Positions 22,909-63,942 of a stretch of 64,000 nucleotides of DNA are shown piece by piece. Where the stretch lies: the NCBI RefSeq assembly GCF_000739615.1, contig NZ_BATP01000056.1, positions 124,001 to 188,000 of the forward strand. Reading direction: 5' to 3'. Position 1 is the first letter of the stretch; every line of letters starts with the position of its first letter. Source of the DNA: Haloferula sp. BvORR071 (lineage in GTDB: Bacteria; Verrucomicrobiota; Verrucomicrobiia; Verrucomicrobiales; Akkermansiaceae). A model generated the notes under the pieces. It saw only the letters and a list, made by a program, of their open reading frames with translations, did no database searches and had not been told where the DNA came from. Made by a program: the position numbers and the translations under genes.

Positions 22909-24060
22909 CTAACCCCGCCGTGCGCTGCGGTATTCCCCGGGCGATTGGCCGATGTGGCGGCGGAAGACCTGCGCAAAGTAGTTGGCGCTGGAGAAGCCGC
23001 ATTGCTCGGAGATTCGCGAGATGGTGGCGCTGGAGCTCTCGAGCATCCGGCAAGCGGCGGCGATGCGCGACTCGCGGAGTTCCTTGCCGGGGGTGGTGCC
23101 GGTGGTTTCGCGGAATTGCTTGTAGAAGGTCGAGCGGCCTTGGCGTGAGGCGCGGACCAGCTTGGAGGTGGTGAGGCCCTTGGTCGCCTGCGCGCGGATC
23201 AGGTCCACGGTGCGTGCGGTCGAGCGCGAGACCACGGCGGCCTGGCCGGTGGAGCCGCGGGCGGTGAGGGTGCAGCCTTGGATGCGGATCTCCAGCGGCG
23301 GCGGCGTGGCCCCGGGTGTTAGATGGCGCAGCATCGCTTCCATCGCCGCCTCGCCGATCTGTTCGCCGGTTGGGATCACGGTGGTGATGTGGGGGGTACA
23401 GGCCATGCACACGTCCGGGTCGTCGCAGCCGATGAGTTGGATGTCCTTAGGCACCCGCAGGCCGATCTTCTGGCAGACGCGGGAGAGGAAGGGGGCCACC
23501 TCACCGGTGAAGGTCAGCACGCCGGCGGGCTTGCGCAGGGAGCGCAGCCAATCGCCGGCCGCGCGCAGGACTGCGCCTTTCGGCTCGGAGCGCAGTTGGG
23601 CGGTGCTGATCGGCAGGGCCAGCACCGGCCCGCCGGGAACCGTTTGGTGGAAGAGTCCGGTGAGCACCTCCGCGCTGCTGCTGCGCCCGGCGACGAGCAG
23701 TGCGATGGTGCGTGCGCCGCGTGAAAGCAGGTGATCGCGGGAGACGCGCGCGACCTCCTGTGCGTTGCCCACCACCATGGTGTCGGCGATGCCAGCGGGC
23801 ATGCGGCAAGCGGCGACGAAGGGGATGCCGGAGAGCTTCTTGCGCAGTGTCACCAGGTCCTGCGCGTCGTCCATGCGCAGGATCACGCCGTGGGGCTTCC
23901 AGGCTAACAGCGGCTTGGTCACGGCCTCGCGGAAGTCGGCGGCCTGCGCATCGAAGCGCCGCAGGTTGAGCCGTGCCTCGGCGTCGGCCAGGCGGCACAG
24001 GCCGCTCAGCACCTGCTGGCTGCGCATCGCGGTGCTGTCCCAGATCAGTGCGACCCGCAT
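22909..24060 (-). CDS. XylR-type AraC-family transcriptional regulator
   Basis: The 383-residue protein from the ATG at 24060 has an N-terminal periplasmic-binding-like effector domain (MRVALIWDSTAMRSQQVLSGL to about residue 265, with IQLIGCDDPDVCMACTPHITTV). A C-terminal AraC DNA-binding domain follows, with two helix-turn-helix segments: LTTSKLVRASRQGRSTFYKQF and ATISRISEQCGFSSANYFAQVFRRHIGQSPGEYR. This is the XylR layout, usually a sugar-responsive activator. A GTG at 24093 would add a basic 11-residue N-terminus seen in related proteins and may be the real start. The gene is divergent from the secreted-protein operon that begins at 24333. Confidence 0.88.
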   Translation of the reverse strand: MRVALIWDSTAMRSQQVLSGLCRLADAEARLNLRRFDAQAADFREAVTKPLLAWKPHGVILRMDDAQDLVTLRKKLSGIPFVAACRMPAGIADTMVVGNAQEVARVSRDHLLSRGARTIALLVAGRSSSAEVLTGLFHQTVPGGPVLALPISTAQLRSEPKGAVLRAAGDWLRSLRKPAGVLTFTGEVAPFLSRVCQKIGLRVPKDIQLIGCDDPDVCMACTPHITTVIPTGEQIGEAAMEAMLRHLTPGATPPPLEIRIQGCTLTARGSTGQAAVVSRSTARTVDLIRAQATKGLTTSKLVRASRQGRSTFYKQFRETTGTTPGKELRESRIAAACRMLESSSATISRISEQCGFSSANYFAQVFRRHIGQSPGEYRSARRG

Positions 24061-24174: not shown

Positions 24175-24332
24175 CGGACGGCGGATTGCCAGATTTCCTA
24201 GCTTCAACAACGACGGCGGGGATCTCGGTCTCCGGCCCTCAGCCGGCCTCCGGTCTCTCATTTCAACATCTCCAGAACCACCGGGAGTTCTCCTGCTTCC
24301 GGATCACCTCTCAAACTCTGCCCTCCGTCGAA

Positions 24333-27300
24333 ATGAAATCGAAACACATCGCCTTCCACGCCACGCTGGCCATTGCTTTCACTTCCGCCCATGCCGCCGA
24401 GCGCTGGTGGGATGGAGGCACGATCGATATCACCAACGGTGGTAACGGCTTCAGCAATGGCGGAGCGGGGACCTGGAATGCCAGCGTGCTCAACTGGGAT
24501 CAGGGCACGGCATCGTCCCACGGCATCTGGGACAATGGCGGCAGCGGAGTGGCGATCTTCGGCGGGGCCGGTGGCACCGTTACGCAGGGGAGTCCGATCA
24601 CGGTGAACCGCCTGGTCTTCGAGTACGGTGCGACCTATGTGATGGCGGATGCGGTGGGCAACTCGCTGACCTTCGCCGGTGACACGCCGTCGATCGTGGC
24701 GAAGGGTGGCGTCTCCTGGGGGACCACCAGCGTTGCTTCCAAGACGACCTTCGAAGGCACTGCCGGCCTGACAATCACGGGCGCGGCGGTGACGAGCGCG
24801 GGGGCGACGGCGGTGGTGCTCAATAGCGCGAGCGCCCACCCGTTGACCGGTGGCTTCACCTTCAAGAACGGCGTCACCTTCAATCCCAGCGTGCGCCTCT
24901 ACACGGGCACCACGGACCTGCTGAATCCGAACAACGCGCTGACCTTTGACGGCGGCCACTTCACCTTGTCCGGTTTCGCGGGCAAGACGATCGACCAGAC
25001 CTTGGGCAATGCCAGCTTCAATACCCTGGGGGCCGGCTCGCGCTTGTTCGTCACCACCTCCGGCAGCAATGCCAGCACCACTACCAAGCTGCACCTCGGC
25101 ACGATCAGCGGCAGCAACCTCACGACCAAGGCTGCGGGTGGCTTGCTCACTGGCTTGGGCTCGCCGCCCATCGCGGGCACGACCCACGCGATTACCACCA
25201 CCACCGCGCCGACCCAAGCCTCTAACAATACCTACGGCCCGCGGGTGATCTACACCATGGATGGCGGCGCGGCCAGCGGTGACTGGACCACCGCGACGGA
25301 TCTGGGCGGGGGAGTCTATCAGCTCGCTCCCTATGCGGGCTACACACCGATGGCGGATGACGGCACGGTCAATAATCTGGATGTGAGCCTTGCCAGCGAT
25401 CTCGTGTTCTTCGCGGACAACACCCGCGGCACGCTCAAGATCGCCAATAACGGCAAGATCAACATGGATGCCTTCATCCTCACGCTGAATCGCGGCGGCC
25501 TGATCACCTCCGGCAGTACCGCCACCACTGTCAGTGGCTTGGTGGGGGCCACCTGCCTCACTGCGGGTGCGGGCAGCAGCTACGAGCTGATCGTCCATCC
25601 CTACAATTCGGCAGGCACCACCATCTCCGCGGTGATCGGTGATAATCCAAACGGCACACTCTTCGACCCCATCGATGACATCCCGGTTTCGCTCACGATC
25701 AACAACCTGGCCAGCAATCCGCTGACCTTGAGCGGGCTCAATACCCACAGCGGAGTCACCACCATCAATGGCAGCTCCACCCTGGTGGATGGCAAGTCCT
25801 CGGTCATAGCCTTGTTCGACAAGAACAAGACGCCTGCGCCCAGCGAGGCGGATCCGGAGCCGCTGCGGGTGGCATCCGCCCTCGGCACAGCGGATAGCGT
25901 CACGCTCAATGGCGCGGTGATCCAGATCCTGGCCAGCGGTTCGGGCACGAGCAACCGCGACCTCAGTGTCAGCGGAAACTCGGGATTCTATGTGAAGGGC
26001 AACTACACCGAGACCCTGGCCGGGGTGATTTCCGGCACGGGCACCTTCAGCACGGATGGTGACTTCGGCGGCAGCAATGGTGGCACGGGCAATGTGGTGC
26101 TGGCGGGTGCCAATACCTTCTCCGGTGACTTTATCTTCCGCTCCGATGCCCGCTTCACCCTCGCGCACGCCGATGCAATGAAGAATGCCACGCTCGACCT
26201 GAGCGGGCAGCGGATCCTGGCCGACCTCAAGACCAACAACCTCTCCTACAACATCGGCGGGCTGCGCGGCAATGTGAGTGCCGAGCTCGGCACCGGTGGT
26301 GCGACCAAGACCGTGACAATCGGTGGCAATGGCCAGTCCAACACCTACGCCGGTGTTCTGTCCGGTGATTCCGGCCTGACCAAGACCGGCACGGGCACCC
26401 AGATTCTTCTCGGCGCAAATACCTACGGCAGCGTGGCCACGGGTTCCACAGTGGTGGCCGAAGGCTCCTTGAAGCTCGGCTCAGTGGGCAGCAGCATCAT
26501 CAACGGTACCGGAAGCTCGGGCCAGAAGACCATTACTGCGCTTTCCGGCACCGCCGGTCTGGTCGTGGGGCAGGCGGTCAGCGGCGGGAATGTCGGTGTG
26601 GGGGCGGTGATCACTTCGATCGATACCGCCACGCAGGTGACGGTGAACGTGGCCCACAGTGCCGCCTTCTCCGCTGTGCCGATCACCTTTGGTGCCGTCA
26701 ATGCGGCCATCGCCACCCCGGCGATCGAAGTGAAGACCGGTGCCACCTTGGATGTCGCCTCGCAGCCTGCGGCTTATGTCATCGCAGCCCCCCAGACCTT
26801 GGGCGGTGCGGGCAGTGTGGTCGGGCCTGTGAGTGTCAGCGGCAAGCTTTCCCCCGGCGTCGCCTCCTCCCCCGACGCCACGGTGCTGTTGCCGGACTTG
26901 GACAACAGCACCGCCACCCTCACGACCGGTGATGTGAGCTTCGCCGCGACCGGCGAATACAAGTGCACGCTGGGTGCCGCCGATAGCGACAAGCTCGCCG
27001 CCGCGAACCTCATCGTGGTCCCCGGTGCCAAGATCAGCTTCAGCGGCACGCCTGCTGCCGCGAGCTATCTGCTGGCCACCTATACCGGTGTCGCTCCGCT
27101 TCCCTTCGCGACTGATGCGAGCCTGCCGGCCGGTTACTCGCTGGACTACACCACACCGGGCCAGATCAAGCTGGTCGGCGGGGGCGGGGGCCCTGCTCCC
27201 TATGACACTTGGACCAGCGCGAAGGGTTTGTCCGGAACGGATGCCGCCGCGGCTGCCGATCCGGATCACGATGGCCTCAGCAATGCGATCGAGTTTGTGA

Positions 27301-27617
27301 TCGGTGGCGAGCCGAACCCGGCCAATGCCGGTGCGGAATCCAGCGCGCTGGCACCCACGATTACCACCACTGACACCCATCTCGTCTTCACGTTCCGCCG
27401 CACGGATACCGCGCTGACCCAGCCGGGCATCGCGATCACGGCGGCCTACAGCTCGAGCCTCGGTGGCTGGACCACCGCGCAGAACGGCGTGAATGGCGTG
27501 ACCATTGTGGTCACCGACGACGGCTTCGGCGCGGGCGTGGACAAGGTGGAGGTCTCGATCCCGAAGACACTGGCCAACGGCTCGCGGATCTTCGCCCGCC
27601 TCAACGCAAGCTTCTGA
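24333..27617 (+). CDS. Secreted autotransporter-associated beta-strand repeat protein
   Basis: The start at the ATG at 24333 gives a signal peptide, MKSKHIAFHATLAIAFTSAHA, and a 1094-residue protein. The body is low-complexity beta-solenoid sequence rich in Gly, Thr, Ser, Asn and Ala, with motifs of the beta-strand repeat family such as LTLSGLNTHSGVTTING, GNVVLAGANTFSGDF and SGLTKTGTGTQILLGANTYG. The C-terminal part has ADPDHDGLSNAIEFVIGG (near residue 976), the D-x-D-x-D-G tail common in Verrucomicrobiota. No translocator beta-barrel and no PEP-CTERM or sortase signal is visible, so how it crosses the outer membrane is unclear. It is the first gene of a five-gene operon. Confidence 0.88.
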   Translation: MKSKHIAFHATLAIAFTSAHAAERWWDGGTIDITNGGNGFSNGGAGTWNASVLNWDQGTASSHGIWDNGGSGVAIFGGAGGTVTQGSPITVNRLVFEYGATYVMADAVGNSLTFAGDTPSIVAKGGVSWGTTSVASKTTFEGTAGLTITGAAVTSAGATAVVLNSASAHPLTGGFTFKNGVTFNPSVRLYTGTTDLLNPNNALTFDGGHFTLSGFAGKTIDQTLGNASFNTLGAGSRLFVTTSGSNASTTTKLHLGTISGSNLTTKAAGGLLTGLGSPPIAGTTHAITTTTAPTQASNNTYGPRVIYTMDGGAASGDWTTATDLGGGVYQLAPYAGYTPMADDGTVNNLDVSLASDLVFFADNTRGTLKIANNGKINMDAFILTLNRGGLITSGSTATTVSGLVGATCLTAGAGSSYELIVHPYNSAGTTISAVIGDNPNGTLFDPIDDIPVSLTINNLASNPLTLSGLNTHSGVTTINGSSTLVDGKSSVIALFDKNKTPAPSEADPEPLRVASALGTADSVTLNGAVIQILASGSGTSNRDLSVSGNSGFYVKGNYTETLAGVISGTGTFSTDGDFGGSNGGTGNVVLAGANTFSGDFIFRSDARFTLAHADAMKNATLDLSGQRILADLKTNNLSYNIGGLRGNVSAELGTGGATKTVTIGGNGQSNTYAGVLSGDSGLTKTGTGTQILLGANTYGSVATGSTVVAEGSLKLGSVGSSIINGTGSSGQKTITALSGTAGLVVGQAVSGGNVGVGAVITSIDTATQVTVNVAHSAAFSAVPITFGAVNAAIATPAIEVKTGATLDVASQPAAYVIAAPQTLGGAGSVVGPVSVSGKLSPGVASSPDATVLLPDLDNSTATLTTGDVSFAATGEYKCTLGAADSDKLAAANLIVVPGAKISFSGTPAAASYLLATYTGVAPLPFATDASLPAGYSLDYTTPGQIKLVGGGGGPAPYDTWTSAKGLSGTDAAAAADPDHDGLSNAIEFVIGGEPNPANAGAESSALAPTITTTDTHLVFTFRRTDTALTQPGIAITAAYSSSLGGWTTAQNGVNGVTIVVTDDGFGAGVDKVEVSIPKTLANGSRIFARLNASF

Positions 27618-27651
27618 CCCTGAGATCAAGCAAGTGGATTCCCATCACTCG

Positions 27652-28737
27652 ATGAAAGCTTTACCCTTTTCGTTGTTCCTCGCCTACGCGCTCGCCTCGC
27701 CACTGGTGGCGAATGAACTGCCCGAGGATGTCACCGGCGCCCTCTATCAGAAGGCGAAAGCCCAGCCGCAGGAGCGCGCCGAGCGCATCCAGCTGAATGA
27801 GGCGATCCTGGCGGATGCCCGCAAGTGCCTGGCGGAGCATCCCGATGTCCCGCCATCGGCCGCCAGCCGGGACATTCTGGTGCGGCGCGTGATGCTGCCG
27901 GCCGCCATGCGGCTGAATCGCGATGAACCGGCTTCACCCGCGTATCGTGAGCAAATGCGCGAGCTGGCCACCGAGGTGGCCAGCTCGACGCTGACGGAAG
28001 GCCACCGCCTGGTGGAGGAGAAGGTGGCTGCTGCCAGCTTGCTGGCGGAGATGGAGATCTGGCCGGAGGCGGACCACGCCCCGCGCGAGGCGTCGGCCTC
28101 GATCCGCAAGCTCATCGAGCGCTTTCCGCTCAAGGCGGATGACAAGACCAGCGCCGCCTTCCATGGCCAGGCCTTGGTGTCGGCGACGCGGCTCGCGGTT
28201 GCGGCCAAGGAAAAGTCTCTGGCGGACGAGTTTTGCAAGGACATCGGTGGCTCCTATCTCAGCACCGCGGGTGCGTTGGATGTCCTGTCGGCTGCCGGGC
28301 ATCCGGCGAGTTTCGAGGGCGAGCTGAACACCCTCGATGGCAAGACCCTGCGCTTCCCCGAGGATACCAAGGGCAAGGTGGTGGTGCTCGACTTCTGGGC
28401 GACCTGGTGCGTGCCCTGTGTGGCCTCGCTGCCGCATGTCCGCGAGATCCACGAGAAGTTCAAGGATCGCGGGGTTCTGGTGGTCGGCGTGAGCTGTGAT
28501 ACGCCGATGGCGAAGGAAACGCCCGACGACAATCGCGCCAAGGTGGCCGCCTTCATCAAGGCCAAGGATCTGTCTTGGACCCAGACCTACTCCGGCATCT
28601 GGCCGAAGGTCGCGGAGAAGTACGGGGTGTCTAGTATCCCGACGGTATTCGTGCTCGGCAAAGATGGCCGTATCGTGTCCGCCGCCGCCCGCGGCCGTGA
28701 GGGCGAGCTGATCGAGCGCGCCCTGTCTGCTCCTTGA
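27652..28737 (+). CDS. TlpA-like thioredoxin-fold protein, secreted
   Basis: The ATG at 27652 gives a signal peptide (MKALPFSLFLAYALASPLVA) and a 361-residue protein. Residues 25-215 form a helical domain of unknown fold. The C-terminal TlpA/AhpC-like domain starts near LNTLDGKTLRFPEDTKGKVV and has the active site WCVPC at residues 252-256, the cis-proline loop SSIPTVFV, and the extra cysteine in VSCDTP. The product is expected to work as a disulfide reductase or isomerase outside the cytoplasm. It lies 34 nt after the beta-strand-repeat gene, so it may fold or protect its secreted neighbours. Confidence 0.9.
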   Translation: MKALPFSLFLAYALASPLVANELPEDVTGALYQKAKAQPQERAERIQLNEAILADARKCLAEHPDVPPSAASRDILVRRVMLPAAMRLNRDEPASPAYREQMRELATEVASSTLTEGHRLVEEKVAAASLLAEMEIWPEADHAPREASASIRKLIERFPLKADDKTSAAFHGQALVSATRLAVAAKEKSLADEFCKDIGGSYLSTAGALDVLSAAGHPASFEGELNTLDGKTLRFPEDTKGKVVVLDFWATWCVPCVASLPHVREIHEKFKDRGVLVVGVSCDTPMAKETPDDNRAKVAAFIKAKDLSWTQTYSGIWPKVAEKYGVSSIPTVFVLGKDGRIVSAAARGREGELIERALSAP

Positions 28738-28763
28738 ATTTTCCATTCTTCCTGTTGATCACC

Positions 28764-29483
28764 ATGACTTCCTTTTTCCGGACTTCCTTCCTCGCCATCT
28801 CCTCGATTGTCACGCTGCACGCCGCCGAGCCGGTGGCGGAGGCCGCGGGTATCGGTGCTTGGACCACCGACTACCCCGCGGCGGTGAAGGTCGCTGCCGA
28901 GCGCCGCCTGCCGATCTTCATCGAGTTCACCGGCTCCGATTGGTGCGGCTGGTGCCAGAAGATGGAGAAGGAGTGCCTGTCCAAGCCCGAGTTCCTGGAA
29001 GCCATGCGCACCCAGTGCGTGCTGGTGAGCGTGGACTTCCCGCACAAGACCCAGCTCCCGGTGGAGCTCAAGGAGCAGAACACCAAGCTCGCCGCCCAGT
29101 TCAAGAAGAGCGCCGGCTTCCCCGCCTATTACATTGTGGACAACGACGCGTCGCAGACGACCCGCTGGAGCTTCGGTGCGCATCCCAAGTATGGTGCCGA
29201 CCTCAAGCTGCTGATCTCCGACATCAAGGACTTCTGCGCCGGCTGCTCCGGGGTGGTGGAGCGGACGGCGGAGAAACTGCCGGAAGCGCAGGCGGCCGCC
29301 TATCGCAAGGCGGCTGCTGACTATGCCGCCAACCAACTGAAGGTGGTGGCATGGCTGGGGGAGGATCATCCCGATGCCAAGGCTGCCAAGGAGCAATTCG
29401 AGAGCGCGCTGAAGCAACTCGCCACCCTGAGGACGGCGATGGATGCGGCAGCCGCCGCGCCTGCGTCCACCTCCCAGCGCTGA
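28764..29483 (+). CDS. Thioredoxin-family protein with WCGWC active site, secreted
   Basis: The ATG at 28764 begins MTSFFRTSFLAISSIVTLHAAEP, a signal peptide. An upstream TTG at 28734 is less likely. The 239-residue protein has a thioredoxin domain like the DUF255/thioredoxin_7 group: PIFIEFTGSDWCGWCQKMEKE, with the redox motif W-C-G-W-C at residues 60-64, and FPAYYIVDN as the cis-proline region. A lysine- and alanine-rich helical tail of about 90 residues follows, including a further C-x-x-C (DFCAGCSG). It is 26 nt downstream of the TlpA-like gene, and the two form a redox pair inside the operon. Confidence 0.88.
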   Translation: MTSFFRTSFLAISSIVTLHAAEPVAEAAGIGAWTTDYPAAVKVAAERRLPIFIEFTGSDWCGWCQKMEKECLSKPEFLEAMRTQCVLVSVDFPHKTQLPVELKEQNTKLAAQFKKSAGFPAYYIVDNDASQTTRWSFGAHPKYGADLKLLISDIKDFCAGCSGVVERTAEKLPEAQAAAYRKAAADYAANQLKVVAWLGEDHPDAKAAKEQFESALKQLATLRTAMDAAAAAPASTSQR

Positions 29484-29510
29484 ATGGTTAGGTCTTGTTT
29501 TTTAGCATCC

Positions 29511-32500
29511 ATGGAATCGAAGTCTTTCTTCCCGGCCGCCCTCTTGTTGGGCTTGGCCTCCTTCCCCGTTCTCGCTGCCGACCGCTGGTGGGATGGCGGC
29601 ACCGCCGATATCGGCACGAATGGCGACGCCGCCAGTGCGGGCGGCGCGGGCACTTGGAATGCCAGCCTCAAGAACTGGGACCTGGGCAATGCCCTCTCGC
29701 ACGGGGCATGGGATAGTGCCGCTGGGGATACCGCCATTTTCGGCGGCTCCACCGCGGGCACGGTGACGCTTCCCGCCGGCCTCAGTGCCGGTGGGCTGGC
29801 GATCGTCAATAGCAGCGGAACTTACACGCTCAGCGGTTCCGCCGTCACCCTGACGGGCAGCTCCCCAGTGATCTCGGTGACGCGCTCCGGCACGATCTCA
29901 TCCAAGCTCAGCGGCAGTCCGGCCAATGGCGTGACCAAGACCGGCTCGGCTACCCTCACGCTCAATGGCACGGTCGCCAATGACTTCAGCGGCGGACTCA
30001 CGGTCCAGACCGGCACGGTAATCCTGAACCTCGGCAACATGGCGACAGCCACCGACCTGATCCCGGCCGGCAGCCCGCTCAGCCTCGGCAGTGGCATCCT
30101 CAGTGTGAGCGCCAAGTCCAGCGGCGTCTCCAGCCAGACGGTGAACGGACTGGTCTTGAACGGTGGCTCGGCTGCTGGCATCACCTTCACTTCCTCGGTC
30201 TCGGCGAGTAGCTCCCTCAATCTCGGCGGCATCACCCGCAATGCGAATGCGGTGCTCAATTTCACCCTGCCCGCGACCGGTAGCATCACCACCAGCGCCC
30301 CGAACAACGCCAGGGGCATCCTCGGCACCTGGGCGAGCACCGGCAGCAGCACAGGCCTGAAGTACGCTACCGTTAGTAGCAATGTGGTCGGCTCCTTAAC
30401 CGGCACTCCCGCTGCCGATGCTGCCGCGCTCAGTGACACCAGCGGCAATGGGAACTACGACCTGACCGCCGCCACGGGCAGCGTGCCCGCCAGCGTCGCG
30501 GTGAATACCATCCGCTATATCGGTGCCGTCGCGGGCACCACGGCCCCCGGTGCCAGCTTGTTTTCGGTCAATGGCCTGATGAATTCCGGCAGCGGTCTGT
30601 GGACGATCGGCAGCAATGACCTCAGCATCGGCGCGGAGCGCGAGCTGGTGATCCACCCCGGGGCCAGCGGCATCACCGTGAGCGGCGTGATCAAGGACAA
30701 CGCCGCCGGGGCTTCCGCCCTGACCATTGCCGGCAGCGCTGCCGTGGGCCTGAACACCGCCAATACCTACAGCGGCCCCACCACCATCCACGGGACTTCC
30801 GCCTATGCCGACAACGGTTCGACCGTAACGATCGCCAATACGCTCAAGGATGCCGGCATCGTCTCGGAGTTCGGCAAGGGCAGCGTCATCGCCCTGAGCG
30901 GCGCGGTGATCCAGATGACGCCGAACAATGCCAGCGGCACCTGCAACCGCGGCCTCATCCTCTCCGGCACCAGCGGCTTCTACCTCAAGAGCGTGCTGAC
31001 CCAGACGCTTGCCGGCTCGATCTCCGGCAGCGGCAACCTTTCAGTGGACAGCGACTTCGCCGGCACGGGCACCACCGGCAAGGGCAACCTCATCCTGGCG
31101 GGCGACAACAGCTTCACCGGCGATATTGCCTTCCAGAACGACGCCAAGATCACCCTGGCCCATGCCAATGCCCTCGCGAAGGCCACGCTGAATCTCAGCG
31201 GCACCCGCATCATGGCCGACCTCGCGAGCAACAATTTCGCCTATGTGATCGGGGCTTTGAAGGGCAGCGTGAACCTCAATCTCGGCACTGCCAAAGCCGG
31301 TGGTGGCAGCGGCATGGTGACCGTCGGCGGCAATCACCAGTCCGGCATCTACAGCGGCACCCTGTCAGGTGCCGCAGGCCTGACGAAGGCCGGCAATGGC
31401 ACCCTGAGCCTCAATCCCGCCACGCCTAACAGCTACGGCGGTGACACCCGGGTCGCGGGCGGCGTGCTCGCGGTCAATGGCAGCGCCCTGCCGGACAGCA
31501 CCAAGCTGGTGATCGACGGCGGCAAGGTCGCGCCCAGCGGGACCGAGACCGTGGACACCTTGTTCTTCGGCGCGCTGCAGCAAGCTGCGGGCACCTGGGG
31601 AGCCCCCGGCTCCGGCGCGGACCACATCGATGACAACCGCTTCAGCGGTAGCGCCGGCGTGGTGAAGGTCCAGCCCTGGTCGGTCAATGCAGCGCAACTG
31701 AACTTCGGCCAGGTGACGAATGGCGACACGATCGCGATGAGCGTCACTATCACCAATCTCGGCACCACCACCATCTCCGGCACGGCCGCGGTGGTGGAGC
31801 CACGTTTCTCCGTGACGGGTGGTGCGAGCTGGTCCGTGGGGGCAAATAGCTCGACCACCGTCACGGTGAGCTTCTCGCCGCTGGTCGATGGCGTCCAGAC
31901 CGGGACGCTCACCCTCACAGGTTCCGGCCTGACCCGTACGGTCGCGCTGGCCGGGGAGGGGATCCCGGCGAGCCAGCCGCTGGCCAACCAGATCCAGGAC
32001 TACGCCTTCAGCACCTTGCCCGGCATGGCTGCCCCGGCCTCATCCGCGGCGATCACGCTGAACGAGGGCGGCACGCTGACCCAATCCTTCAAGCCGCGCC
32101 GTGATGCCTTCCTCGGCCAGTTCGCCGCGCGCGACAGTGCCAATGTCCCGCTTTACTGCGAGCTGCGGTCGCTGAGCTTCAAGACCACGGCCTATCAGAC
32201 TTCGCCCTCCACGCTGCGCTTCGAGATCTTCCGCGTCCAGGATAATGGCAGCCGCCTCCTGCAGACTACCGAGGATCTCGACCAGACTTTGTTCGGTGAT
32301 ACCCCTTACCAGGTGACCTTCCAGACCCCTGCGGTGCTGGACTTCGATGCCAACTACGAGATGCGCCTCACGCTGGTGACCTGTGGTGAGCGTTCCTATG
32401 GCGGCGGACCCTCGATCAAGTTGTTCGCGCCTTCGAGCGGCTATGCCGATGGTGCGCTGGCCTCCGGCGGCGACCTCTGGTTCGATGGCCAAGGCAGCAC

Positions 32501-33818
32501 CGTGATTCCGGTCTATCCGGAACTGGTCGTCACGGCAGCAGCCGGCAACTGCTTCTTCTACGACGGCGACGTGGCCAACGCGAACTCGTCCAGCTACGAC
32601 AATTTGAAGGGCAAGTTGCTCGGCATCGGCGGTGCCGCCGAGAAGCTGGTCTTCAGCCATCCGGCCGAGTGGGGTCCGCTGTCCTTCAGCGTGGACAATA
32701 CCAGCTTCGCCACCGCCACGCCGGATGCACGCAGCGGTAACTCGGACAGCTGCCAGCTCTCCGGCGTGGCGGAAGGCAACGCCATGCTGTGGGTGAAGGC
32801 CGGCGGCACGGTGGTGGGTTACATGAAGCTGATGACCTTCCCGCAGCGCTGGATGCCGCTCTCCTACACCTACGTCCAGTATCCCGGTGAAAGCGACCAC
32901 GCGCTCAAGCACGCCTCCGCCGAGATCATGGCCTACATCTCCTCCCTGTATGCCAAGGCTAACATCGCCATCCAGTGGACGGACAACGGCATCATCACCC
33001 ACGAGTGGGATGAGAATGGCGACGGCAGCAGCTTCAACGACACCTACTCGGAGATCTGGTCGCCGATGACATCCGGTGCCCTGCCGAACCAGAGTTCGTA
33101 TTTCTCGAACGTCTTCATGCTGCGCTTCAACAAGGACGACAACTTCCTGGGCGGCACCAATGGCGGCGGGACCTCGATGGGCCTGGGCCCCGATGATTCG
33201 CCGCGCGGCGCCAATGTCCGCTGTCACCTGCTGCGTCCCGCCAGCCAGTTCGCCTCCACGCTGAGCCATGAAATCGGCCACAACCTCGGTCTCTATCACC
33301 AGACGGTCTCGAACAACCTGATGACCGTCGGGCGCGCCAAGGACGAGCTCTGGACCTGGCAGTGGACGACGATCCACAGCACGCTCAAGACCCTGCAGTA
33401 TCCCGCCGGCAATCCGGACGGCAATGCCAACGGGATCCTCGACGGCTGGGAGACCCAGATGTTCGGCGGCGCGAGCGCCGGTGCCAATCTGCCCGACGCC
33501 GACGCGGATGGCGATGGCATCAGCAACATCCTGGAATACGCCTTCGGAACCCATCCGCTGCAGCCGAATGCCAACCCGGTGTCCGTCAGCTTGGTGACCA
33601 TCGGGGCCAGCCGTCACCTGCAGGTCTCGGTGCCCAAGAATCCCGCCGCGATCAACCTGGGCTTCGCCGCGGAGCTTTCCCCGGAGCTCGGCACTTGGAC
33701 GGGCGCGGGGATCACCGTGGAGGAGAACAGCACCACGCGCTTCACCGCCCATGAGACCGCCCCGACCGGTTCGGTGAGGGCCCGCTTCATCCACGTGAAG
33801 GTCACTGTGAATCCATGA
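29511..33818 (+). CDS. Beta-strand-repeat protein fused to a metzincin zinc protease
   Basis: The ATG at 29511 gives a signal peptide (MESKSFFPAALLLGLASFPVLA) and 1435 residues. Residues 25-700 are beta-strand repeats homologous to the first operon gene (RWWDGGT, GAGTWNAS, NSYGGDTRVAGG). About 720-815 is a choice-of-anchor-D/ASH-like domain (LNFGQVTNGDTIAMSVTITN). A long beta region follows, then a reprolysin-like protease with HEIGHNLGLYH at 1253-1263 and a following Met-turn NNLMTVG. The C-terminal tail has DADGDGISNILEYAFG. Most of its cysteines are in the protease half and could form disulfides made by the two thioredoxins. It overlaps the next gene by 4 bp. Confidence 0.88.
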   Translation: MESKSFFPAALLLGLASFPVLAADRWWDGGTADIGTNGDAASAGGAGTWNASLKNWDLGNALSHGAWDSAAGDTAIFGGSTAGTVTLPAGLSAGGLAIVNSSGTYTLSGSAVTLTGSSPVISVTRSGTISSKLSGSPANGVTKTGSATLTLNGTVANDFSGGLTVQTGTVILNLGNMATATDLIPAGSPLSLGSGILSVSAKSSGVSSQTVNGLVLNGGSAAGITFTSSVSASSSLNLGGITRNANAVLNFTLPATGSITTSAPNNARGILGTWASTGSSTGLKYATVSSNVVGSLTGTPAADAAALSDTSGNGNYDLTAATGSVPASVAVNTIRYIGAVAGTTAPGASLFSVNGLMNSGSGLWTIGSNDLSIGAERELVIHPGASGITVSGVIKDNAAGASALTIAGSAAVGLNTANTYSGPTTIHGTSAYADNGSTVTIANTLKDAGIVSEFGKGSVIALSGAVIQMTPNNASGTCNRGLILSGTSGFYLKSVLTQTLAGSISGSGNLSVDSDFAGTGTTGKGNLILAGDNSFTGDIAFQNDAKITLAHANALAKATLNLSGTRIMADLASNNFAYVIGALKGSVNLNLGTAKAGGGSGMVTVGGNHQSGIYSGTLSGAAGLTKAGNGTLSLNPATPNSYGGDTRVAGGVLAVNGSALPDSTKLVIDGGKVAPSGTETVDTLFFGALQQAAGTWGAPGSGADHIDDNRFSGSAGVVKVQPWSVNAAQLNFGQVTNGDTIAMSVTITNLGTTTISGTAAVVEPRFSVTGGASWSVGANSSTTVTVSFSPLVDGVQTGTLTLTGSGLTRTVALAGEGIPASQPLANQIQDYAFSTLPGMAAPASSAAITLNEGGTLTQSFKPRRDAFLGQFAARDSANVPLYCELRSLSFKTTAYQTSPSTLRFEIFRVQDNGSRLLQTTEDLDQTLFGDTPYQVTFQTPAVLDFDANYEMRLTLVTCGERSYGGGPSIKLFAPSSGYADGALASGGDLWFDGQGSTVIPVYPELVVTAAAGNCFFYDGDVANANSSSYDNLKGKLLGIGGAAEKLVFSHPAEWGPLSFSVDNTSFATATPDARSGNSDSCQLSGVAEGNAMLWVKAGGTVVGYMKLMTFPQRWMPLSYTYVQYPGESDHALKHASAEIMAYISSLYAKANIAIQWTDNGIITHEWDENGDGSSFNDTYSEIWSPMTSGALPNQSSYFSNVFMLRFNKDDNFLGGTNGGGTSMGLGPDDSPRGANVRCHLLRPASQFASTLSHEIGHNLGLYHQTVSNNLMTVGRAKDELWTWQWTTIHSTLKTLQYPAGNPDGNANGILDGWETQMFGGASAGANLPDADADGDGISNILEYAFGTHPLQPNANPVSVSLVTIGASRHLQVSVPKNPAAINLGFAAELSPELGTWTGAGITVEENSTTRFTAHETAPTGSVRARFIHVKVTVNP

Positions 33819-34870
33819 TCATCGTGCGCCGCATTCTTGCTACTGGCTTTGCCGTAATTTCTGCGGGGCTTGCCGCGGCGGCCCCGGGCGATGCCTTCCG
33901 CGAGCTCGACAAGGACCAGGACGGCCGGATCTCGCTGGAGGAGTTCTACGTCACCGGGCCACCGCCCCTGCATCCACGCATGCGCCAGGTCTTCGAGTCC
34001 TTCGACCCGGAGCACCGCGGCAACCTGGGGGCCGAGGAGGTGGCCAAGGTGGTGGATGCCGTTCGCAGCCTCCAGCCGAAGCTCGATCCTGCGGTGGATG
34101 GGACCTTTGCTGATATCCCGCTGCAGGTGCATGCGAAGTCGAAGCGCGCTTTCGTGAAGGCCCGCGTCAATGGAGTGGAGGGCACTTTCCTGGTCGATAC
34201 CGGGACCAGTGATACGATCGTCGATGCTGGCTTTGCCCGCCGGGCGGGCATCGATTTCGTCGAGATCTGCATGACCATCACCGGCGGGAACTACGGCAAG
34301 AAAGGCGATGTCGTCTCCTTGGTGAAGCTGCCGCAGATGGAGATCGGCGGCATCCGCTTCCGCGACTTCCACGCGGTGATGCGCGACGAGAGCAAGAAGC
34401 GCTCGGACTTCGAGGGCCAGCTCGATGGTATCCTAGGCGCCAACCTGCTCTTCGCCAAGCCGCTGACCCTCGACTACAAGAACGCCCGTCTGAGCTTTAC
34501 CGAAGAGCGGAGCAAGCCAGCCGACTTCGAGTTCGATCTCCTGCCGGAATATCCCAAGGTCCCGGTCGTCGCCGCCCAGCTCGACGGCACCGACATTCGC
34601 CTGATGCTCGACTCCGGTGCCGTGATCGGGGACACCCTACTCATCAACGAACCTTATCACGAGGCGTTGCGGGCTCTCGCGGGAGACGCGAGCGCGAAGG
34701 ACTACCAGTCCAAGGAGCTGCGCGTGTCCGGCAAGCTGCTGACTTCGGACAAGCGCTGCCTGCTGCGGCCCTTCGAGCACTCCGTCATCGGCGCAGTGTT
34801 CTTTGCCAGCCATCGGATCACTGTCGATCGTCCTGCCGGAAAGATCCGCATTTGGGCGGAGCCGGAGTAG
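33815..34870 (+). CDS. Secreted EF-hand / retropepsin-like aspartic protease
   Basis: This 351-residue protein has a signal peptide (MIIVRRILATGFAVISAGLAAAA). A calcium-binding EF-hand loop, DKDQDGRISLEE (residues 32-43), and a weaker second one near SFDPEHRGNLGAEE follow. Two aspartic-protease half-domains come next: FLVDTGTSDTIVD with D-T-G at 128-130, and RLMLDSGAVIGDT with D-S-G at 266-268, plus LDGILGANLLF. Retropepsin-like proteins of this kind occur across bacteria with few known substrates. The ATG overlaps the stop of the metzincin gene, so the two proteases are translationally coupled and probably work on the same target or on each other. Confidence 0.85.
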   Translation: MIIVRRILATGFAVISAGLAAAAPGDAFRELDKDQDGRISLEEFYVTGPPPLHPRMRQVFESFDPEHRGNLGAEEVAKVVDAVRSLQPKLDPAVDGTFADIPLQVHAKSKRAFVKARVNGVEGTFLVDTGTSDTIVDAGFARRAGIDFVEICMTITGGNYGKKGDVVSLVKLPQMEIGGIRFRDFHAVMRDESKKRSDFEGQLDGILGANLLFAKPLTLDYKNARLSFTEERSKPADFEFDLLPEYPKVPVVAAQLDGTDIRLMLDSGAVIGDTLLINEPYHEALRALAGDASAKDYQSKELRVSGKLLTSDKRCLLRPFEHSVIGAVFFASHRITVDRPAGKIRIWAEPE

Positions 34871-46191: not shown

Positions 46192-48834
46192 ATGAATCCT
46201 TCCCATCTTGGCCGCCTCCTGGCTCTCGCCACGGTGGCGTCCCCTGTCTGTGCACAGGAGCCCACGAGCATCCCCGTCGACTTGCCGGACTTCCACTGGC
46301 ATCTCACGGCGCGTCCTTGGCAGCCGGTGAATGCGCCGGAGTCCGTGCTGCTCGACCAGATGGAGAAGGCAATCCACGCGATGGCGCCGCTCCAGTATTG
46401 GAATGCGAATGATCCGAAGGACGTCAAGAACGGCTCGATCATCGATCCTTACGATAAGAAGGAGCTGCAGTATGCGACCCCGCTCTTCGCCTTCAATGTG
46501 GCGACGCTGATGACCAAGGGCCGCGCGCAGGATCTGCTCGAGCCGGGCTGCCGGGCGCTGGACCGCTGCACGCTCAACATCTCCACCGGCCCGGCGAATG
46601 ATTGGCACGGCGAGTTCTTCTGCGCGCCGATGGTGAAGGCGATCCGGATGTTCGAGGCGCTACGCAAGGATCATCCGGAGATCAGCGAGGAGCGGATCAA
46701 GACCTGGAAGTCGCGGATGACGGCCAAGCGCGAGGGCTTCATGAACATGAAGGTGAAGCAGAACTGGCGGACCTTCGCGATGAGGGGCGAGTGGCTGCGG
46801 CAGCAGGACGGCTACATCAGCGATGGGGTCACCTGGAACGAGGCAAACTGGACCCTGGCCAGCGAGGGCGGCCAGCGCGAGCGCTTCCGCCGCGATCTCG
46901 ACAAGTACGGGCTCAAGCCGCACTTCTTCCTCTACCACGACGATACCGCGGACCCGGAGACCTTCGCCTACAATGGCGCGACCACCGCGAACCTCTTGGA
47001 CATGCTGGAGAATGGCTACGACGGCGCCTCGGCGAAAGAGATGCGCGAGATCATCGGCCGGAATCTGCACGCGGCCCTGCTGATGCTCAGTGGCTCGGGC
47101 GAGGCCCCCGCCGGCGGCAGGACCGGCGAGCACATCTGGGACGACAGCATTTATGCGAATGCCTTCCAACTGATGGCGGAGCTGGCGCGGCGCGAGGGTA
47201 ACATGGAGCTCGCCGGGCAGTACCGCCATGCGGTGCAATTGCTGCTGAAGAGCCACGCGCGCTTCAAGCAGGAGAGCGGCTTGTTCTCGATCACCAAGAA
47301 CGCCTTCCATCCCAGCCTGAAGAATCGCTACGCGAGCTGGAGCGGAGTTGCGAATTATGAGGGCTTCACGTTGGCCTGCTGCTCGGAGACCCTGCTTGCG
47401 CAGAAGAACACGATCGAGGAGCTGCCGACACCGAACGAGATCGGCGGCTACGTCGCGACCCTGGATCCTTCATTCGCGAATGTCTTCCTCAATGCCGGTG
47501 GCATGCAGGCACAGATCTGCACCCGCGGGGAGACGGACAAGTATGGCGACGTGCAATGGCACACGCTGGGGATCACCCGCTTCAGTCGCAGCGGCTGGGA
47601 TGGCCGCCTGGGCCCCGGTGCAGGCCACGTGAAGCCGGACTTCAGCGATGGGCTGAGCTTCTCGCCGGTCTTCTTGGAAGACGGCAAGTGGAAGCGGGTC
47701 TGCCTGGAACCGAAGCGCTTTCAAGGCAGCTTCAAGGCGGAGTTCGTGCACCCGCTGCTGGTGCGCGGCACTTTCACCATCGCGCCGGTGGCCGGCCAGA
47801 GCGGGCCGAGCTTCGCGATGAAGATGACGCTGACGCCGGATGGTGCTCTCGTGGATACGGAGTGCCTCTCCGGCGCGAAGGACTTCGGGGTGATCTGGCC
47901 TCTGTTAGAGTTCGACGGGCGCAACGTGCTCGACAAGCAGGTGGGCAAGTCGATCGCCTCAACGGCTTATCCAGATTCATCGAAGGACGCGGTGGTAGTT
48001 CAGGCAGAGACTTATTCGTCCTCGAAGTTCACCTTGAAGGAGAGGCTCGGCTATCATGGCGAGGGCTACCTCAAGATCGGCGAGGCAGGGGATAAGGTGA
48101 CTTGGGGCTGCGGTGAGGGTCTGCTCTCGCAGGTCGGCTTCCGCTATGCCTTGGCCGGCGATGCCAAGACCACCCGGCGGGTGAAGCTGAAGGTGAATGG
48201 CTGGGCCCAGCCGGATCTGGTCTTCCTCAGCACCGGTGAGGCCGGCTGGCATGAACTCTATGTGCCGGTCCACCTCGATAGCGGGAAATTCAGCACGGTG
48301 GAGCTCGAGGCCACGGAGCCCGGGGACCTGTTGATCGATGAGGTGCGCTTCCAGCCGGAGAACATTTCCCCGGAGGAGATGGACCAGCAAAACTTCATCG
48401 CGCTGAAGCCGACCCACCAGATCGATGACAAGGCTCCCGCAGTGCGTGGTGGGTACGGGGACTTCCGCCCGCTGCGGGTGACGGATGCAGATGGCGGGCC
48501 CGTGGAGACCTTCGTGTATCCGCGCAAGACCGGCGATCCACAGGCGGAGGCGGTACGGTCGAGCTTCAAGAGGGAGGGAGGCGATTTCTCCTCAGTGCTC
48601 GGTCGAGTGCGGGGCACCCTCTATGTCGGCCGAACCTCAGCGGGCGGGGAAGGGAAGGGGATCGACCTCGATGGCGATGGCAAAGACGAGGCAAGCTTCG
48701 AACAGAACTGCCAGTTCATCCTGCAGTTGAAGGACGGCAAGGTGATCGCGGTGGAGACGGATCGCGAAGTGAAAGGCCGGATCGGCGGGAAGGAGATTTC
48801 CTTCGCTGCCTTCCGGCCAGTGCATATGGATTAG
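46192..48834 (+). CDS. Secreted polysaccharide-active protein: alpha-toroid plus CBM6/35-like domain
   Basis: The 880-residue protein has a signal peptide (MNPSHLGRLLALATVASPVCAQEP). Residues 35-420 are helical with aromatic and acidic clusters (DWHGEFFCAPMVKAIRMF, RTGEHIWDDSIYANAFQLMAEL) that suggest an alpha/alpha toroid, as in polysaccharide lyases and hydrolases. A beta-sandwich region follows to about 600. Residues 605-725 resemble a CBM6/CBM35 carbohydrate-binding module (VVVQAETYSSSKFTLKERLGYHGEGYLKI). A beta-rich tail of about 150 residues with DLDGDGKDEAS ends the protein. Family and substrate are not recognised. Confidence 0.8.
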   Translation: MNPSHLGRLLALATVASPVCAQEPTSIPVDLPDFHWHLTARPWQPVNAPESVLLDQMEKAIHAMAPLQYWNANDPKDVKNGSIIDPYDKKELQYATPLFAFNVATLMTKGRAQDLLEPGCRALDRCTLNISTGPANDWHGEFFCAPMVKAIRMFEALRKDHPEISEERIKTWKSRMTAKREGFMNMKVKQNWRTFAMRGEWLRQQDGYISDGVTWNEANWTLASEGGQRERFRRDLDKYGLKPHFFLYHDDTADPETFAYNGATTANLLDMLENGYDGASAKEMREIIGRNLHAALLMLSGSGEAPAGGRTGEHIWDDSIYANAFQLMAELARREGNMELAGQYRHAVQLLLKSHARFKQESGLFSITKNAFHPSLKNRYASWSGVANYEGFTLACCSETLLAQKNTIEELPTPNEIGGYVATLDPSFANVFLNAGGMQAQICTRGETDKYGDVQWHTLGITRFSRSGWDGRLGPGAGHVKPDFSDGLSFSPVFLEDGKWKRVCLEPKRFQGSFKAEFVHPLLVRGTFTIAPVAGQSGPSFAMKMTLTPDGALVDTECLSGAKDFGVIWPLLEFDGRNVLDKQVGKSIASTAYPDSSKDAVVVQAETYSSSKFTLKERLGYHGEGYLKIGEAGDKVTWGCGEGLLSQVGFRYALAGDAKTTRRVKLKVNGWAQPDLVFLSTGEAGWHELYVPVHLDSGKFSTVELEATEPGDLLIDEVRFQPENISPEEMDQQNFIALKPTHQIDDKAPAVRGGYGDFRPLRVTDADGGPVETFVYPRKTGDPQAEAVRSSFKREGGDFSSVLGRVRGTLYVGRTSAGGEGKGIDLDGDGKDEASFEQNCQFILQLKDGKVIAVETDREVKGRIGGKEISFAAFRPVHMD

Positions 48835-52532: not shown

Positions 52533-52606
52533 GGAAAGGGCCGCTTCCGGGACAATCGACCTTCCGCGTCCGCGCCCTCTGGTCCCCATTGGAGTTCGCG
52601 AAACCC

Positions 52607-58700: not shown

Positions 58701-59176
58701 CCAGCGCCCGCAATGGCTACAGCCGCATGCCTCCGCTGGCCACCAGCGTGATCGATCCCGCGGGGGTACAACTTCTCAAGGACTGGATCGAGTCGATGAG
58801 CTCCAGCCGCCAGAGCCTCACCGCCTGGACTGCGGAAAAGCTCGGTGCTCTTCCTCCGGCCGACCAGATGGCAAATGCTGATCCCGATGGCGACGGCCGC
58901 AACAACCAGCAGGAATTCCTCGAGCATACCGATCCGCTCACCGCGGACCGCTCCAGCGCCCCCGGCGTCGCGCTGCAAAATGGCGACACCCTGCAACTTG
59001 AATTCCCCGCACTCCCCGGCCGCGGCCAGATCCTCCAAAGCTCGCCGAATCTCGCCGACTGGAGTGACTGGCCCTTCCCCGGAAACGACGGCCTCGAACG
59101 CTCCGGCCCATGGCAACTCTCCCTGCCCGCCACCGATGGCCAGCGCTTCTTCCGCGCCCGCATCGAGGAGCGGTAG
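55733..59176 (+). CDS. Secreted PA14 / PQQ-dependent sugar dehydrogenase / cytochrome c fusion
   Basis: The ATG at 55733 gives a signal peptide (MTSPRFWIFLGLALANSALAAPP) and 1147 residues. About 30-180 is a PA14-like carbohydrate-binding domain (YGQRVFGWVHAPVTGNYRFYIHSDDSSELWL). An Ig/cadherin-like stretch follows. About 310-705 is a glucose/sorbosone dehydrogenase-type beta-propeller (GLLGLAFHPQYASNRRFFVYYS, NHNGGCVQFGNDGYLYVSFGDEG, FWAVGLRNPWRFSFD). The C-terminal part has two c-type haem motifs, CMSCH (855-859) and CSYCH (932-936), and a NADPDGDGRNNQQEFLE tail. It could oxidise sugars outside the cell and pass electrons to its own haems. The exact substrate is unknown. Confidence 0.9.
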   Translation: MTSPRFWIFLGLALANSALAAPPTGAITRHVWTGIGGSEVQNLTSIAAFPNSPSQTGTLPSFLAPQDSADDYGQRVFGWVHAPVTGNYRFYIHSDDSSELWLSTSESPDNKRKVAMVNGWGPAGNWTNSPDQTSAIITLQAGRYYYIEALHKEGGGGDNLGVGWTYPGQASITYTPGSNLSTWQNVAPILANDSAYVYTGSSTLIRVMDNDVEPNGKADFNLASMAIQTPPTQGTATITANKSILYTHTGSGTGTDTFTYRIQDQAGLISTATVTMNITDQMRLPLSSARMPSGPPPQALTAINAFPTLPGFEQPLAIITPPGEASRIFVVEKGGDIEVIPNINSPAVSTFLNLDGIVNGRGTESFKTDGEAGLLGLAFHPQYASNRRFFVYYSVTIGANFYQRLSEFACSAGNPNVADPASEKVLLQMLDEWDNHNGGCVQFGNDGYLYVSFGDEGDQNDAGANSQKITKDFWSSMIRIDVNVDPANYGANPNLAPNPHPAIVLDPVSNNPRYKVPANNPWVGATSFNGQPVTPSQVRTEFWAVGLRNPWRFSFDAPTGDLWCGDVGGGSWEEINKITKGGNYEWAYREGITGQGPRWNERPGTWAGGNLPIFAYGHGSGTLQGNSVTGGLIYRGTRLPALTGKYIFGDYSSGNIWSMDPAIGSASVTRLTGEGGIAAFGTDPSNGDVLLADLDGQVRRLVSQAVDTGFPATLTDTGLFADVAALTPASGLVEYSVNLPFWSDNAKKRRWFGMPSLTPKLGFNREGAWTTPEGTIWVKHFDMEMTRGNPATNKRLETRVLVRNAEGSYGVSYRWNAAGTEATLAAEAGEEFDLNISVNGTPTTQRWRIPSRSECMSCHTPQAGHSLSFRTRQLNLPGTIGLQSGNLIQLLSDAGYLDGLNASPATLAKHPAGNDSAYSLEARARAWLDVNCSYCHMAGGTAPANFDVRAQVPLFSTNTVGITPTSGALHPDDKLISLGQEERSVLIHRASARNGYSRMPPLATSVIDPAGVQLLKDWIESMSSSRQSLTAWTAEKLGALPPADQMANADPDGDGRNNQQEFLEHTDPLTADRSSAPGVALQNGDTLQLEFPALPGRGQILQSSPNLADWSDWPFPGNDGLERSGPWQLSLPATDGQRFFRARIEER

Positions 59177-60408: not shown

Positions 60409-60540
60409 GCAGACTAACAGACTAGAAAGAACCGGATTCCCATTCCCTTGCCCGTTCCCGCCACATGCCCGGCGGGGCGGGCTCTTCCCGCGATGGGCGC
60501 TCCCGACCAAGCGCCCCCGCGGTTCCCCTGCCTGATTTCC

Positions 60541-63500: not shown

Positions 63501-63942
63501 CCTCGGCTTCCGCAAGACGCCCCAGCAGTATGGTGCCTTCCCCGCGGAGGCTTACTCGCACAGCCCCGCGCATGCCGGTGCCCAGCAGCCCGGCCTCACC
63601 GGCTCGGTGAAGGAGGGCATCCTCTGCCGCCTCGGCGAGCTCGGCGTGAGCTTCGAGCAAGGCGGCCTCCGCTTCCGTCCCCATCTTCTGCGCGCCGCCG
63701 AATTTGCGACGGGCGAGTCCTGCGAGCGCTGCCTGCATTTCACCATCGCTGGCACGCCCATCGTCTATTTCTGCCGCGATTCGCTGAACGATGCCACGCT
63801 GACCCTGCGTTTTGACGATGGCACCGTGCAGACCATCGCTGGCTGCTTGTTGCCCCCGGCCCTCGCCGAGTCCATCATCCACCGTACCCGTCGCATTCAT
63901 GCGATCGAGGTGGAGGTCCCGGTCTCCTGGCTGCTGCATTGA
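60541..63942 (+). CDS. Large cytoplasmic glycosidase/phosphorylase-like protein of unknown family
   Basis: The 1133-residue protein from the ATG at 60541 has no signal peptide. The N-terminal 350 residues are beta-rich (LSCDFPPANRWACEDGQDYALIAGLEEMAPFFLNIVSPDDHWMFFASNG). The middle and C-terminal parts are helical with motifs such as YFEGNWRDIFQNWEALAWSHPD, GYWGDHQIVYLLKLLE and GGIWMNTQRPEWNDANNALAG. A beta-sandwich before an alpha/alpha toroid is the layout of GH94/GH15/GH63-type enzymes, and the paired acidic residues in GDHQ and EWND are suggestive of catalytic sites. It is an inferred carbohydrate-active enzyme, not an assigned family. The open frame reaches further upstream, but the first good ATG is at 60541. 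Confidence 0.75.
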   Translation: MLVPSSEATSLSCDFPPANRWACEDGQDYALIAGLEEMAPFFLNIVSPDDHWMFFASNGALSAGRGTADNALFPYDTADKIGESWNSTGPWTAVLAGDVLWEPMRPGTLAGPGVTRRLRKNLTGDEVVFEEEHAGLKLRFSYRWQCSERFGFVRRARLENLGEKPVALRLVDGLDNFLPAGVDQRMQNQFSCLADAYKLSELEAGGRLLVHRLAAGIIDRAIPLECLLATTVWTHGLPGAQSFLSRQEAQDFLRGLEPEPVNLSRGSRGALFLGRDFELAPGQAANWLMVAELKQSQAKVSALRELLGEPSKLDLEVAADVARGRKRLRRLVAAADGIQQGADRDATLHHYHNTLGNILRGGVPLDGSKIRSQSFAAYLGKHNAPLRETFRSWLKQLPEQLPRGRWLAEVRALGDPDLERLAVEYLPLVLSRRHGDPSRPWNRFAIRVKDESGEPVEYFEGNWRDIFQNWEALAWSHPDHLAAFITKFVNASTVDGFNPYRISSDGLDWEVPDPEDPWSSIGYWGDHQIVYLLKLLETQAEVRPDFLATNLDRARYVFADVPYRLCPWDQLLEDPRHTVGFDRERHDELTRRKEAMGSDGLLLRDASGELCRVTLAEKLLLPAVVKLANLVPGGGIWMNTQRPEWNDANNALAGCGLSVVTAGYLLRYLAFLEKHFSNSPSLKISAHLAELIGTLGKLFADPRWLQEGELDASARFKLVAAAAQAAARHRAAVYEDGPGAPQLVGRAAILSFLQAATAALRCTLRQNRRADGLYHAYNILEIGRSGQTMDLGRLPEMLEGQVAILSSGLLTPQEAADLLEALPQSQLFSARHQSYLLYPDRTLPGFLDYNRIKPSVAKSIPTLAEMLDHGDHRILVPDITGDFRFHPALTNEYELAAALDRIAMKADFVDSDREAIRALYELVFHHRAFTGRSGAMFAYEGLGCIYWHMVAKLMLAAQEIALKVARQGEPDALSFRLAAAYYSIQRGLGFRKTPQQYGAFPAEAYSHSPAHAGAQQPGLTGSVKEGILCRLGELGVSFEQGGLRFRPHLLRAAEFATGESCERCLHFTIAGTPIVYFCRDSLNDATLTLRFDDGTVQTIAGCLLPPALAESIIHRTRRIHAIEVEVPVSWLLH

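Follow-up and report, generated by a model that had tools for sequence, protein, structure and literature searches.

The window analyzed here is a stretch of 64,000 nucleotides from Haloferula sp. BvORR071 (contig NZ_BATP01000056.1, positions 124,001 to 188,000), and its positions are used throughout. Its subject is a cluster of five codirectional genes for secreted proteins, A to E, with a divergent XylR-type regulator gene. Two of the products, A and D, are large beta-strand-repeat proteins with a common C-terminal domain. The genes are as follows.

22909..24060, minus strand: XylR-type regulator, a LacI-like sensor with an AraC-type helix-turn-helix (Peripla_BP_3 77 bits, HTH_18 66.5 bits)
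24333..27617, plus strand: gene A, signal peptide, beta-strand repeats and C-terminal domain; 1094 amino acids
27652..28737, plus strand: gene B, secreted TlpA/ResA-like thioredoxin (AhpC-TSA 68.3 bits)
28764..29483, plus strand: gene C, secreted Thioredoxin_7/DsbH-like protein (Thioredoxin_7 57.1 bits)
29511..33818, plus strand: gene D, signal peptide, beta-strand repeats, ASH, metzincin and C-terminal domain; 1435 amino acids
33815..34870, plus strand: gene E, secreted EF-hand and aspartyl protease (PF13650 56.8 bits, EF-hand_7 36.4 bits)

The spacers between genes A to D measure 34, 26 and 27 base pairs (bp), and D and E overlap by 4 bp (-4). Gene D has a further in-frame ATG at 29484, and the start at 29511 agrees with a signal peptide; signal-peptide-like N-termini, judged by eye, are present on all five products. 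For the regulator, a second open start lies upstream at 24261, and the internal Met at 24060 is most likely the start, which would place the two divergent starts about 270 bp apart. Scanning of the four junctions between A and E for promoter-like and terminator-like sites returned none in any junction, and such sites showed no excess over shuffled sequence, so that co-transcription of A to E as one message is plausible. Base composition gave no sign of a foreign origin, the cluster having 64.6% guanine-cytosine content against 63.3% in the remaining window.

A and D exceed the cut-off of the TIGR02601 beta-strand repeat (30.0 and 34.6 bits, respectively, cut-off 19.85), and no autotransporter barrel family matched either of them at E≤1. 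The two proteins are alike at both ends, having the C-terminal domain and the N-terminus in common, and are members of a very large paralogue family. The N-terminus is not peculiar to the pair, similar starts being present in other phyla. A recent tandem duplication is not favoured, because A is nearer to the single strong homologue matched along its full length (45% identity, residues 79-1091), which belongs to genome G077 of the same order and another family, than to D (38%). Two further elements were located in D.

31662..31934, plus strand: ASH domain of D, residues 718-808 (PF15780, 29.2 bits, E=1.1e-6)
33267..33323, plus strand: zinc site HEIGHNLGLYH and Met-turn of D, residues 1253-1271

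The metzincin motif HExxHxxGxxH is intact, and a Met follows eight residues past the third and last His. Adamalysin-type chains were the nearest solved relatives by sequence in the PDB (E=0.008), while the scores stay below the Pfam family cut-offs (matrixin/M10 19.9 of 24 bits, Reprolysin_3 19.5 of 22.4 bits). D appears, from its motifs, to carry a metzincin-type protease that may be active.

The thioredoxin domain of B is of the AhpC-TSA/TlpA-ResA-like type, with the active site WCVPC at 28405-28419, and in the Thioredoxin_7/DsbH-like C, WCGWC occupies 28941-28955 and CAGC forms a second CxxC. Fold and CxxC are common to C and chlamydial-type DsbH and to B and the TlpA/ResA thioredoxins, but both proteins score far below the curated cut-offs of these models (DsbH 80.9 of 190, ResA 71.7 of 170). 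E matches Asp_protease_2 (PF13650) with 56.8 bits (cut-off 24.3) and combines DTG at residue 128 (34196-34204) and DSG at residue 266 (34610-34618) with a canonical EF-hand in a single chain; the Pfam score and the two motifs place it among the clan AA aspartyl proteases. Sequence matches were to calcineurin B for its N-terminus (E=3e-5) and, weakly, to the protease of simian immunodeficiency virus for its second half (E=0.09). An earlier note on this DNA had reported the same gene order, directions, spacers and 4-bp overlap, five signal peptides, a divergent XylR-type regulator, repeats without a translocator barrel in A and D, a metzincin fusion in D, thioredoxins in B and C and an EF-hand/retropepsin-type protease in E. 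Starts and stops in the sequence, the signal-like N-termini seen by eye, the Peripla_BP_3 and HTH_18/AraC domains, and the families and motifs found here bear this description out.

The earlier note had gone further and suggested a functional unit, which may be a surface fibre or glycan-harvest layer. Read as a dedicated five-gene surface-layer system, it would have the disulfides of A and D formed by B and C, and both proteins matured by the metzincin of D and the protease E. Tight spacing, the overlap, signal-like starts on all five products and the likeness of A and D at both ends fit such a system; the distribution of the homologues does not. In the searches for parts of A, B, C and D and in the domain and repeat scans, candidates were scored in part, so that counts are lower bounds and absences carry less weight; genome counts for A to E include the Haloferula genome itself. 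Residues 781-1310 of D, with the metzincin, were matched at E≤1e-8 in one of 387 genomes of the phylum, its own (up to three candidates scored per genome). Matches to E came from 14 of 97 genomes; leaving aside its own copy, they reached no more than 33% identity, and all fall inside residues 101-272. C-like proteins were found in at least 86 of the 97 and B-like proteins in at least 39 (E≤1e-15); by these matches, both belong to large families. A matched at least 15 of the 97 at E≤1e-25, mostly with its C-terminal quarter (seven candidates scored per genome).

No other cluster gene was found within about 1.5 kb at the loci of 15 other E, 19 C and 14 B matches, and the sole weak B match near a C match, at locus L040, overlaps the C match itself. 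The 19 kb around the G077 homologue of A hold no homologue of B, C, D, E or the regulator. Within the Haloferula genome, the paralogues listed are four of C besides itself (a fifth was counted), one of B and one of E, and those listed lie at least 8 kb from the listed repeat genes or on a contig without one. Among 15 repeat genes outside the window, in regulator regions, one had a homologue of B, C or E within three genes, and this was a B homologue. No search of relatives or of the Haloferula genome returned a second copy of the set, within the candidates scored. The conserved co-occurrence of the five families, for which the earlier note had proposed a search, was thus not found. Within the candidates scored, the homologues of A to E are scattered, the very result that the note had named as refuting a functional unit, and the five-gene unit was rejected on the D region confined to its own genome, the E, B and C loci, the G077 locus and the positions of the paralogues. 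As far as searched, the set as a unit appears to be peculiar to this genome, and comparison lends it no support.

The cysteine content points the same way. There are two cysteines in A and six in D, just one of the six in its repeat part, which makes the disulfide-linked repeat fibre assembled by the thioredoxins, also put forward in the earlier note, unlikely; neither protein is a cysteine-rich subunit, and this fibre was rejected as well. Altogether, we regard the dedicated surface-layer system as highly improbable. A chance neighbourhood, in which unrelated secreted-protein genes are adjacent and have no joint function, would agree with the lack of conservation and with the great number of repeat proteins and of proteins with the C-terminal domain in this genome. 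We nevertheless consider it rather unlikely, given that the five genes all run in one direction, are spaced by no more than 34 bp and overlap once, and that the four junctions are without a terminator-like site.

The core of the cluster that appears to have comparative support is the regulator, of a sugar-sensing type, adjoining large beta-strand-repeat proteins. The Haloferula genome holds ten regulator matches at E≤1e-15, five of which, including that of the window, adjoin a repeat gene with the C-terminal domain. Seventeen congeners contributed 80 further regulator places, covered by 79 regions. Genes in the fetched regions were called by a custom script, and the regulator was located in 85 of 89 regions (in the four dropped it was not called; regions L124 and L131 overlap). 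Directly beside the regulator (offset ±1), 11 of 170 genes were repeat genes, compared with 4 of 415 among those two to four positions away on either side (p=4e-4), and the corresponding figures for genes with the C-terminal domain were 19 of 170 and 10 of 415 (p=3e-5). The adjacency of regulator and repeat gene was more frequent in the Haloferula genome (5 of 10) than in the congeners (6 of 75 examined; p=0.003). By reading, seven of the 11 pairs are divergent, three tandem and one convergent. Judged by these counts, the pairing is real, yet far from universal.

A GTDB scan with the N-terminal part of A and D, which used two peptide patterns only and may have missed the nearest records, returned 11 loci and no close orthologue; Lysobacter, Bradyrhizobium and Achromobacter are among them. 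A clear regulator homologue directly precedes the repeat gene at two of these loci (L102 and L104), and a weaker, partial match does so at two others (L103 and L106). The cluster regulator has the same two domains as the XylR-type LacI/AraC hybrid regulators, whereas its neighbour here is a gene for a surface-type protein and not a sugar catabolic operon. Of the surface layer suggested in the earlier note there remain secreted, probably surface-exposed repeat proteins beside a recurrent sugar-type regulator, while the five-gene unit and the disulfide fibre fall away. At L129:1603-12750, a XylR-type regulator and a gene with repeats and the C-terminal domain occur together, next to genes whose products resemble a uronate isomerase, a GH43 enzyme and a major facilitator superfamily transporter.

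The unnamed and uncurated C-terminal domain was followed with a profile, A1, built from 11 members (a fragment, L005, was left out of the alignment). Copies located in the window, two of them in the cluster, are the following.

27201..27614, plus strand: C-terminal domain of A (profile A1 E=1.8e-29; A is a row of the profile)
33438..33815, plus strand: C-terminal domain of D (profile A1 E=5.8e-42; D is a row of the profile)
58817..59173, plus strand: C-terminal domain on an unrelated PA14/GSDH-type protein outside the cluster (profile A1 E=1.5e-29 at G000:C11:182817-183170; a row of A1)

The domain spans about 120 residues and comprises a W, a DxDxDG calcium-type loop, an N..E(Y/F) motif and a beta-rich part, in which S..L..W is conserved and whose final strand ends near an F.R motif. 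Profile A1 has at least 152 matches in the Haloferula genome at E≤1e-3 (150 of the 420 first candidates scored); the 150 matches listed are spread over 145 reading frames, and in 108 of these a match is near full length (reaching model position ≥110). Across the phylum, it was found in at least 98 of 194 genomes at E≤1e-6, with up to 22 candidates scored per genome. After eight of 75 matches had been dropped as cut by the locus end, 67 had a known gene end, 64 near-full and three partial. All 64 near-full matches, among them rows of the profile and loci fetched for a domain match, have their end no more than 10 residues from the stop codon. A signal-like N-terminus was assigned to 30 of 34 domain carriers and to 368 of 689 other proteins by a custom and loose rule.

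Among the 11 members, Pfam detected a 22-residue TSP3 loop (TSP3_bac) in three and gave one F5_F8 match (E=0.048), and NCBIfam gave four weak families, the best at E=7e-5; for one member, the matches to both collections lay far below the cut-offs. A structural model from eight rows has six strands and a mean predicted local distance difference test (pLDDT) score of 74. Foldseek found no match to it under E=0.001 (best 0.023), and VIA scores reached Z≤6.4, nearly all to immunoglobulin (Ig)-type folds. The domain of D is accordingly predicted by the model to be a TSP3-like calcium loop followed by an Ig-like sandwich. No published description of the domain was found in titles and abstract openings, a search that left most subscription literature outside, and specialists may know the domain. 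Genomes of genus g3, of the same family and 2-3 Mb in size, carry one to eight domain matches or none. Seven IMG/VR contigs (L111, L114, L115, L116, L117, L118 and L119) encode proteins of 200-212 residues that end in the domain; these are either phage-borne or host DNA within viral contigs. In the window, a GH32 and laminin-G protein at 52589-55501 has an end that resembles a degenerate copy (E=0.06 only).

Repeat proteins of the same genome differ in what occupies their C-terminus. A repeat scan of the Haloferula genome gave at least 58 open repeat frames among the 150 matches listed, with D included and A not. For 42 of these, a domain match lies on the same contig in a frame of the same length, as compared by eye and with some of the domain matches partial. 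The other 16 comprise nine that match a wider domain profile (E<1e-3), four that end in PEP-CTERM and three with neither assignment, one apparently cut short. A PEP-CTERM tail was present in none of 36 domain carriers and in 23 of 668 control proteins, and the C-termini of A and D have no PEP motif, no membrane helix and no tail of basic residues. In another genome, at L225:1-14385, a run of four large repeat genes has C-termini that alternate between PEP-CTERM, the domain, PEP-CTERM and the domain; a small prepilin-like gene lies between the second and third.

Passages in two publications regard PEP-CTERM as a sorting signal (PMC1569441, PMC4960237), and a passage of one of these gives 65 PEP-CTERM proteins for Verrucomicrobium spinosum (PMC1569441). 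The domain resembles the PEP-CTERM/exosortase tags, which are used by sister repeat proteins of the same genome, in its many copies per genome, its position at the extreme C-terminus, the signal peptide and the varied cargo; it differs in being about 120 residues long and predicted to be folded. PEP-CTERM and the domain occupy the same place on different repeat proteins, and on the simplest reading the domain would have a similar task, as a sorting or anchoring module. A and D would then need no barrel, since the domain would do the sorting.

A different role would be that of a calcium-dependent carbohydrate- or matrix-binding module, which holds exported proteins at the surface and is no export signal. 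The TSP3_bac match in three of the 11 members, the Ig-like fold hint from the model and an exopolysaccharide locus that adjoins the cluster are in keeping with this. Binding modules usually occur internally and in tandem too, however, while the 64 near-full matches are all terminal, and PEP-CTERM, which is presumed to be a sorting tag, is found in the same slot on other repeat proteins. We hold the binding role to be rather unlikely.

Known secretion systems offer partial parallels. The autotransporter-associated repeat proteins of TIGR02601/PF12951 are like A and D in their signal peptide, W-rich start and repeats; A and D depart from the autotransporter scheme in having another terminal domain and no C-terminal barrel, and they lack the translocator beta-barrel that defines type V autotransporters. 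The C-terminal domains of the type IX secretion system (T9SS) are folded, Ig-like, C-terminal and present in many copies; the domain of the cluster is likewise C-terminal and of many copies, and its Ig-like fold is predicted. No T9SS C-terminal domain model was among the Pfam and NCBIfam matches of the 11 members at E≤0.1. A search of the genome for SprA (PF14349) matched none of one, and the control was likewise without any match.

The explanation to which we incline, by a modest degree, is that the secreted-protein genes of the cluster form a set particular to this lineage, probably co-transcribed, with the pair of regulator and repeat gene as its core, and no conserved five-part machine. 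In this scheme, the regulator would bind a sugar and turn on A, and B to E through readthrough. A and D would reach the periplasm via Sec, and their repeats may form an elongated stalk of the beta-solenoid type. Standing in the place of an autotransporter barrel, the C-terminal domain common to both would direct or anchor the protein at the cell surface, and D would use its stalk to display the metzincin. The products of B, C and E would be periplasmic or secreted accessory proteins recruited to the locus. A bolder and distinctly tentative extension, which we would put below even odds, is that the domain, on A, D and some 145 reading frames of the genome, tags substrates for a sorting or secretion pathway that is as yet undescribed in the Verrucomicrobiota and runs parallel to PEP-CTERM/exosortase; it would replace the autotransporter barrel on beta-strand-repeat proteins and let sugar-responsive regulators swap surface proteins.

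Several observations weigh against this explanation. The adjacency in the congeners is modest (6 of 75), and the 5 of 10 in the Haloferula genome may reflect family expansion. The signal-peptide rule is passed by 53% of non-carriers. The wider profile also matches 7 of 668 control proteins (E<1e-3), with matches ending near the C-terminus, and these may be further domain members. The fold model is middling (pLDDT 74), and its Ig-like matches are weak (Foldseek E 0.023, VIA Z 6.4). Strict C-terminal placement would also fit a surface- or glycan-binding module, and no cognate translocon for the domain was found. If the domain is nonetheless a sorting tag, it would mark a large surface proteome in a phylum with poorly known secretion routes, its secretion route would become testable, and the five-gene cluster would be one local instance and no new machine. 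The regulator pairing suggests that sugars switch surface proteins.

The exopolysaccharide biosynthesis and export locus lies to the left of the regulator on the minus strand (744-21858, nine genes scanned) and encodes Poly_export/SLBB, ABC-2 transporter, glycosyltransferase and FkbM methyltransferase proteins, with an ATPase that is probably Wzc-like. Elsewhere in the window, two open frames, at 46192-48834 (880 amino acids) and 60448-63942 (1164 amino acids), had no Pfam match at E≤0.001.

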